Assembly (NCBI RefSeq): GCF_030063135.1
Contig: NZ_JASISO010000036.1
Span: 1 to 64,000 of the forward strand
Direction: 5' to 3'
DNA length: 64,000 nucleotides
Source of the DNA: Streptomyces sp. G-G2
Lineage (GTDB): Bacteria > Actinomycetota > Actinomycetes > Streptomycetales > Streptomycetaceae
Below, one piece after another: positions 36,801-37,548 of the stretch (its first letter is position 1; every line of letters starts with the position of its first letter). Under the pieces are notes generated by a model that was given only the letters and a program-made list of their open reading frames with translations, searched no databases and was not told the DNA's origin. Position numbers and translations under genes: made by a program.

Positions 36801-36840
36801 GGCGGCCGGGCCGGGGCAATCGCGGCAATCGGGGCAACGC

Positions 36841-36871
36841 AGAAGGCCCCAGTCGATGACTGGGGCCTTCT
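36841..36871. terminator. Terminator of tRNA-Gly copy 2
   Basis: AGAAGGCCCCAGTC / GACTGGGGCCTTCT: a 14-bp perfect stem with GAT loop, 33 bases beyond the 3' end of the tRNA at 36905. Confidence 0.9.
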
Positions 36872-36904
36872 GGCTGAGAATCTTCTGCAACAAGTGCATA
36901 CAAG

Positions 36905-36977
<73 letters not shown>

Positions 36978-37070: not shown

Positions 37071-37142
37071 AGCGGGTGACAGGAATTGCACACTGCGCCT
37101 TCCCCCTGGAAGGAGGATGTTCTACTACTGAACTACACCCGC
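37071..37142 (-). tRNA. Atypical tRNA-Gly(UCC)
   Basis: A 72-nt cloverleaf with perfect acceptor (GCGGGTG/CACCCGC), D-stem (GTTC/GAAC) and anticodon stem (TCCTC/GGGGA, one G-U), anticodon loop CTTCCAG (UCC). The D-loop is AGTAGTA with one G where GG is usual. The T-loop is TGCAATT instead of TTCRANY. The T-stem CAGTG/CCTGT pairs at only two of five positions. Standard tRNA finders may score it poorly. It may be a non-canonical glycine donor or a decaying gene. Confidence 0.75.
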
Positions 37143-37230
37143 ACGACCTTCGGGGCTTTGACCTGCGGTCTGGCCCCTCGGCGTGATCCACACACTAGCC
37201 GATCCATGGGGGTGGATGGCAAATCGGGGG

Positions 37231-37548
37231 TCAGTGGGCCGCGTTGTAGGCCTCGTAGACCTTCTTGGGGATGCGGCCGCGGGGCGGCACGTCGAGCTGG
37301 TTGGAGCGCGCCCAGGCGCGGACGACCGCCGGGTCCGGAGCGATCGAGGTGTGCTTGTAGGCCTTCCCGGAACGGGACTGCCGACGGCCGGCGGCCACGT
37401 AAGGGGCCAGGCTCTTCCGGAGCTTCTTTGCGTTGGCGAGATTGAGGTCGATCTCGTACGACTTACCGTCCAGGGCGAACACGACCGTTTCCGACGCTTC
37501 TCCGCCGTCGATGTCGTCGGAGATCGTGACTACTACGCGCTGCGCCAC
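37231..37548 (-). CDS. lsrL: Lsr2-family nucleoid-associated protein (probable LsrL paralogue)
   Basis: A 105-residue H-NS-like DNA-bridging protein. The N-terminal dimerisation domain starts MAQRVVVTISDDIDGGEASE, and the C-terminal AT-hook-like motif is PPRGRIPKKVYEAY, with the RGR that enters the minor groove. Streptomyces have two copies; the one beside purS is LsrL, while Lsr2 itself lies elsewhere. The symbol is assigned on that context. It represses or organises AT-rich, often foreign, DNA. ATG at 37548. Confidence 0.9.
   Translation of the reverse strand: MAQRVVVTISDDIDGGEASETVVFALDGKSYEIDLNLANAKKLRKSLAPYVAAGRRQSRSGKAYKHTSIAPDPAVVRAWARSNQLDVPPRGRIPKKVYEAYNAAH

Follow-up and report, generated by a model that had tools for sequence, protein, structure and literature searches.

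The window analysed here is the whole stretch of 64,000 nucleotides taken from one contig of Streptomyces sp. G-G2 (the host genome below). It carries an unusual tRNA-Gly(UCC) gene, which we call the odd tRNA, together with the following features:

37231..37548, minus strand: gene of an Lsr2-like protein (Pfam Lsr2 and Lsr2_DNA-bd), upstream of the odd tRNA
37192..37222, minus strand: promoter-like element TTGCCA-N19-TAGTGT, conserved, 49 nt upstream of the odd tRNA
37071..37142, minus strand: odd tRNA-Gly(UCC) gene of 72 nt, without an encoded 3' CCA; Rfam RF00005 score 49.7 bits, E 1.2e-7
37123..37129, minus strand: D-loop AGTAGTA, with A18 at 37126 and G19 kept
37108..37110, minus strand: anticodon UCC, from the sequence and the Rfam alignment
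37091..37096, minus strand: 5' strand of the T-stem, GCAGUG (G49, C50, A51, G52, bulged U at 37092, G53)
37084..37090, minus strand: T-loop TGCAATT, with G55 at 37089, C56 and A58 kept
37079..37083, minus strand: 3' strand of the T-stem, CCUGU
36905..36977, minus strand: ordinary tRNA-Gly(GCC), 93 nt downstream of the odd tRNA on the same strand
36840..36872, no strand: 15-bp perfect inverted repeat after the GCC gene, a possible terminator hairpin with no T-run

Rfam RF00005 places the gene, on the minus strand, exactly where the first-pass annotation of this DNA had put it, and the anticodon UCC and the intact acceptor, D and anticodon stems are also as that annotation had them. The host genome (8.19 Mb, 139 contigs, 100% complete) gives 73 matches to this model at E <= 0.001, all of which were read, and the odd tRNA has the lowest score among them. 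In 72 of these 73 tRNAs, the ordinary register gives five standard T-stem pairs and T55 is present; the sole exception is the odd tRNA, where the G reported at position 55 of the T-loop is indeed present. ARAGORN, unlike RF00005, does not call the gene when run on the window. The same program labels a relative of the odd tRNA in another genome (G139, locus L241) as tRNA-Trp. Automatic annotation may hide or misname genes of this kind.

Of 73 upstream regions from the same genus, 70 contain the motif TTGC-N20/21-CTANNGT (base-shuffle mean 0.005), some 50 nt ahead of the gene; the motif was chosen after inspection of these sequences. A generic sigma-70 promoter scan found nothing at the locus, and the promoter-like call rests on conservation; a scan for T-tract terminators found none there. 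The Lsr2-like gene adjoins the odd tRNA or a tRNA-Gly(GCC) gene in all 19 family loci examined.

The T-stem had been described as pairing at two of five positions. This is an artefact of assuming a variable loop of 5 nt: with a loop of 4 nt, which is also that of the host's ordinary UCC and CCC genes (71 nt), the stem has five pairs and a bulge, that is G49-U65, C50-G64, A51-U63, G52-C62, a bulged U and G53-C61, followed by a loop of 7 nt. We compared 51 distinct family sequences, derived from 134 loci of which some share one genome. Every one of them has two T-stem pairs in the register with the 5-nt loop, and five pairs plus one bulged base in the register with the 4-nt loop. In the bulged register, 48 of the 51 have G-C as the Levitt pair 15-48; the ordinary one would give G-G in 43. 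In one relative (G109) the CAGUG of the strand is replaced by CAUGG, which shifts the bulge by one step and retains all five pairs. The variation kept inside the stem is of one kind only, G-U to A-U (7/51). Aligned by Infernal to the general tRNA model, the odd tRNA shows an insertion at precisely the bulged base (mean posterior 0.99). In 14 chosen diverse sequences, the bulged stem makes 99.3% of the pair cells standard, and the ordinary register 85.4%. We rejected the latter after comparing the family members and inspecting how Infernal aligns them. When the 11 bases of the stem are shuffled, five pairs and one bulge arise in 12% of trials. Hence, a single sequence would not prove the bulged register, and our claim is founded on conservation, on the moved bulge of G109 and on the Infernal alignment.

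Folding of single strands was left out of the evidence for this register. Folded whole, the odd tRNA has a minimum-energy structure with the acceptor, D and anticodon stems, but with another hairpin in the T-arm (GCGC/GUGC) and no bulged T-stem; one relative and the ordinary UCC tRNA, folded in the same way, give no cloverleaf. The isolated 20-nt T-arm folds into four pairs, a bulge and one pair, and 50 of 200 shuffles fold equally well. RNAalifold, applied to 14 sequences, returns the same four shifted pairs with the loop closed one base off (columns 52-59 vs 52-60).

Family sequences were collected with a filter that required the UCC, the CCUGU of the T-stem and the greater part of both the acceptor 5' strand and the D-arm (G19 among the latter); that these letters do not vary is in part a consequence of the filter. 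Even so, all 134 loci at which the odd gene was expected were recovered, and both G19 and CCUGU are present in all 19 odd tRNAs read by position, with no sequence filter (the twentieth stretch of this set, an ordinary CCC gene, was included deliberately).

As for the elbow, the D-loop had been said to contain a single G. Its sequence is as given but the wording was loose, as G15 and G19 are present and only G18 has become A. The contact between positions 18 and 55 is described in PMC4810234, which also cites work on what this contact does in translocation, and the first-pass annotation considered it to be affected. Both bases are changed, but the contact is exchanged as a pair: A18 and G55 occur together in 46 of the 51 distinct sequences, G18 and U55 in the other five (genera g2 and g5), and single changes in none. 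Judged by these counts, the exchange is coordinated. C56 and the pair U54-A58 are retained in all 51.

One exact-pattern scan of the genome collection, written to exclude the arm of the host's genus, returned three loci; no Staphylococcus was among them, and the gap lengths of the pattern may not fit staphylococcal genes. Outside the family it gave A18-G55 tRNA-Gly in one Patescibacterium and one Prevotella. In Patescibacterium UBA1400 (G574; 1.0 Mb, 6 of 17 tRNA-model matches read), all three Gly genes found, with anticodons UCC, GCC and CCC (L254:2748-2819, L262 and L264), have A18-G55 and intact T-stems. This means that A18-G55 is compatible with translation; by itself it is no mark of a non-ribosomal tRNA, and as such a mark it was rejected. 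The exchange probably arose more than once. In Prevotella vespertina, the A18-G55 tRNA-Gly(UCC) gene (L255:5024-5098) adjoins a second UCC gene starting GCGCAAA, and a third UCC gene lies elsewhere (L261).

These features bear on the possibility that the odd tRNA is still ribosomal, as a slow or specialised reader of GGA/GGG which adjusts the rate or the frame of translation at certain codons. The tRNA has U33, a normal 7-nt anticodon loop and an intact anticodon stem; C56 and U54-A58 are invariant (as is G19, fixed by the filter), the Levitt pair is kept in the bulged register, and A18-G55 occurs in all the Gly genes found in Patescibacterium. Nevertheless, we consider this reading unlikely: the form of the T-stem is unique among the host's 73 tRNAs, and two further observations, on the ordinary UCC gene and on the genomes that lack the odd tRNA, also count against it.

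The ordinary glycine set of the host consists of one UCC gene on another contig (C76:72298-72368), one CCC gene and three GCC genes. The other, normal tRNA-Gly(UCC) that the first-pass annotation had proposed to look for is thus present, and not only in the host: a pattern of the ordinary UCC gene, allowing three mismatches, gave one match each in 101 of 101 same-genus genomes and in 61 of 61 family genomes (the two sets share seven genomes). Since an ordinary UCC gene is always alongside, GGA decoding does not need the odd one.

The odd tRNA shares with the host's ordinary UCC and CCC tRNAs the 4-nt variable loop, the 7-nt D-loop, G49-U65, C50-G64 and the identity elements; unlike it, they have 71 nt, no bulge, G51-C63 and G18-U55. 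The pair G51-C63 is carried by the three GCC genes of the host as well, and it is A51-U63 in all 51 distinct odd tRNAs. As far as sequence can tell, the UCC/CCC type of tRNA-Gly is the one that the odd tRNA most resembles, and we infer that it derived from this type. The glycine determinants of tRNA-Gly set out in the relevant part of PMC9976931 are U73, G1-C72, C2-G71, C35 and C36. Of these, U73, C72 and G71 are found in 51/51 distinct odd tRNAs, while G1, C2, C35 and C36 are present in the host's gene and were required across the family by the collecting filter. The pair 3-70 is G-C in the host's gene; in the family it is G-C in 39 sequences and A-U in 12.

Could the odd tRNA be a regulatory RNA (a charging sensor, a decoy or a precursor of tRNA fragments), for which glycine delivery would not be required? 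The conserved promoter-like motif and the T-arm would fit any RNA-protein contact. However, all the glycine identity elements tested and the anticodon are kept, and the tRNA-Gly(GCC) that occupies this slot in two genera (see below) points to a role in which glycine matters. We regard such an RNA as very improbable.

The odd tRNA was found in 159 of 159 same-genus genomes, 101 of them by BLASTN and 3, 34 and 21 more by covariance model. With the odd gene as query, BLASTN gave a best E <= 7.8e-18 in each of the 101; the weakest of these odd genes scores 86.9 bits and the other matches score at most 51.8. We read sequences from 50 of these 101. The covariance model (R1) was built from 11 odd sequences with three shifted T-stem pairs supplied by hand; on 39 of the host's 73 tRNA loci it gives 101.7 bits to the odd gene and 64.5 to the ordinary UCC gene, and across the genomes searched no odd gene falls below 85.2 bits, while the remaining matches, mostly unread, reach at most 74.2. 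It recovered the odd tRNA in 10/10, 44/44 and 65/65 same-genus genomes (overlapping sets) and in 39 of 51 other family genomes. Under stricter filters, which other designs would escape, it found the odd tRNA in none of 15 genomes from other families of the order and in none of 349 other-genus genomes of the class sample. One exact pattern matched no odd tRNA in viral contigs, and in 10 of the 249 plasmid records with a matching region, the matches listed cover the Lsr2-like or the ordinary GCC part and never the odd tRNA. As far as we searched, the odd tRNA appears to be restricted to Streptomycetaceae.

All 51 distinct sequences have paired acceptor and D stems, and each pair of the anticodon stem is kept in at least 49, with two-sided changes; eight pairs outside the T-stem show two-sided compensating changes in the 14 chosen diverse sequences. 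Several genomes carry the odd tRNA in tandem: three copies in G018, G060, G035 and G051, two in G048, G036 and G114, and further genomes as well. In the three-copy tandems of same-genus genomes at L104, L105, L111 and L112, the copies are spaced by 114-119 nt from start to start.

A decaying pseudogene or an assembly artefact would account for the low tRNA score and for the gene being missed by ARAGORN. This explanation is already refuted by conservation, and we give it hardly any credence: the gene is in 159/159 genomes, in tandem in some, and conservation, compensatory stem changes and the conserved promoter-like motif together exclude decay. The changes that had been noticed in one sequence recur among its relatives (bulged five-pair T-stem in 51/51 distinct sequences, A18-G55 in 46/51), and the suspicion of a pseudogene, raised by the first-pass annotation itself, falls. 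The odd tRNA is almost certainly a conserved, functional and specialised tRNA.

The 12 of 51 other family genomes from which the odd tRNA is absent are the three genomes of genus g11, the eight of genus g14, and G126. The Lsr2-like neighbour was found in 11 of the 12, G126 being the one without it (E <= 1e-25). At 10 of these 11 loci (L211-L221; g11 and g14), two GCC genes follow, in place of the odd gene plus GCC of the relatives; at the eleventh, L216, one GCC gene is visible before the contig ends. A tRNA-Gly(GCC) does not read GGA. The fact that this tRNA holds the slot in g11 and g14 speaks against a ribosomal reader, and the replacement of UCC by GCC would argue, weakly, for a supplier of glycine over a reader of codons. 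The argument is weak because duplication after loss would look alike, and because two GCC genes are likewise present at this place in some genomes that do carry the odd gene.

Glycine is a weak EF-Tu binder. The affinity of a tRNA for EF-Tu is set by the pairs 49-65, 50-64 and 51-63, and weakly held amino acids go with strongly binding tRNA bodies, as explained in a section of PMC11231383. In the corresponding part of PMC4052509, G49-U65 is a strong EF-Tu pair, and A49-U65 and A51-U63 are the weakening changes of the staphylococcal non-proteinogenic tRNAs, which are thought to escape EF-Tu. The host and most of the family keep G49-U65 (44 of 51 distinct odd tRNAs; A49-U65 in 7), and this strong pair would speak against weak binding.

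We propose the following mechanism. A second tRNA-Gly(UCC) would have acquired an extra base bulged from its T-stem, a change of the pair 51-63 from G-C to A-U and, mostly, an exchange of G18-U55 for A18-G55. The ordinary GlyRS would charge it. Its affinity for EF-Tu would be lowered by the bulge and by A51-U63, with a greater effect for an amino acid as weakly held as glycine, and much of the odd Gly-tRNA could then escape the ribosome; its most likely use would be to donate, via FemX, the single bridging glycine to lipid II. How Gly-tRNAs poorly bound by EF-Tu escape D-aminoacyl-tRNA deacylase is a question asked in PMC4880308, and it would apply to the odd tRNA too.

The peptidoglycan of Streptomyces has a bridge of a single glycine. 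In S. coelicolor, FemX uses an aminoacyl-tRNA, according to a passage of PMC4052509. FemAB-family genes (PF02388) are found in 36 of 37 family genomes tested, that is in 12/12 without the odd tRNA and in 24/25 with it; the remaining one, G121 (410 contigs, 96% complete), has the odd tRNA and no FemAB match. In the class sample, at E <= 1e-15, they are found in 71 of 148 genomes, 13/13 of the same genus and 58/135 of other genera, and none of these 58 has the odd tRNA. Co-occurrence as evidence of a coupling was therefore rejected, in the family (12/12 without the tRNA keep FemAB) as in the class (58/135). As FemX persists in genomes without the odd tRNA, the coupling is not obligatory, and FemX, on the gene content compared, can clearly work without it. 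The presence of FemX throughout the genus sample is needed for a cell-wall donor but does not single it out. In a FemX tree of 30 of the 36 FemAB-positive genomes (a single hit per genome; judging by branch length, some are probably paralogues, as in G126 and G013), the four G18-U55 genomes included form one clade, and the direction of the 18-55 change is not polarised.

Two or more FemAB-family genes are present in some family genomes, which would suit another use of the glycine, outside peptidoglycan: donation to other aminoacyl-tRNA enzymes, such as FemX-like transferases of natural products or some unknown protein or lipid glycylation. Natural-product enzymes are strain-specific, whereas the odd tRNA is in every same-genus genome tested, and we find this use decidedly unlikely even though the Streptomyces enzymes DhpK and Orf11 use Gly-tRNA outside translation, as reported in a part of PMC12945691.

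We come back to the cell wall. That the odd tRNA is a dedicated extra tRNA-Gly is well supported, since it is not the sole UCC isoacceptor, is conserved and has not decayed; the destination of its glycine we infer. It is somewhat probable that the odd tRNA is mainly non-ribosomal. The best explanation, to which we give an even chance, would be a dedicated, weakly EF-Tu-bound glycine donor, probably for a FemX-type transfer; that FemX is its main user we hold a little less firmly, just below even. The first-pass annotation had proposed a dedicated donor with altered D- and T-arms. The extra, conserved tRNA stands; the T-stem, however, is bulged and not open, the 18-55 pair is exchanged and the presence of FemX does not follow that of the tRNA.

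If the odd tRNA is a dedicated donor, these well-studied antibiotic producers separate the glycine of the wall from that of translation at the level of tRNA, by a structural route which differs from that reported for staphylococci. Tentatively, and with slightly less than even confidence, we suggest that Streptomycetaceae evolved their own non-ribosomal cell-wall glycine tRNA, independently of staphylococci, with the bulge, A51-U63 and the A18-G55 elbow, and that a spare GCC tRNA replaced it in at least two genera. The natural variants (bulge with G18-U55, bulge with A18-G55, slot held by GCC) make the escape of an aminoacyl-tRNA from the ribosome, a long-standing question, testable in laboratory strains that are not pathogens. 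Our literature search, which most subscription journals were outside the reach of, found no report of this tRNA.

Staphylococcal non-proteinogenic tRNA-Gly isoacceptors serve the synthesis of pentaglycine (Giannouli et al. 2009, as cited in parts of PMC4052509 and PMC8007984). By these descriptions, they are likewise extra UCC tRNAs with altered D and T arms and a low tRNA score, standing beside ordinary ones, and they have A51-U63 for G51-C63 as in Streptomycetaceae. To this extent, the likeness drawn by the first-pass annotation is justified, and if the mechanism proposed above is right, the odd tRNA would act in the way that these tRNAs do. It does not extend to positions 18 and 19: the staphylococcal tRNAs replace both G18 and G19 (by UU or CU), whereas the Streptomycetaceae keep G19 and change 18 together with 55, so that we read A18 G19 in 46 of the 51 and G18 G19 in five. 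As this change is lacking and A49-U65 is rare (7/51), we did not file the odd tRNA as a member of the staphylococcal type. The bulged T-stem base is a feature of the Streptomycetaceae odd tRNA, the staphylococcal tRNAs being compared here by their published description. Bulges in the T-stem are on record elsewhere, in selC* tRNA-Cys and in 8/4 tRNA-Sec (from a portion of PMC7609411), which are, like the odd tRNA, specialised tRNAs. Their acceptor domain is of the 8/4 type and their bulge lies at 51a; the odd tRNA, in contrast, has an acceptor stem of 7 bp and five T-stem pairs, with its bulge between 52-62 and 53-61 (one step earlier in G109).
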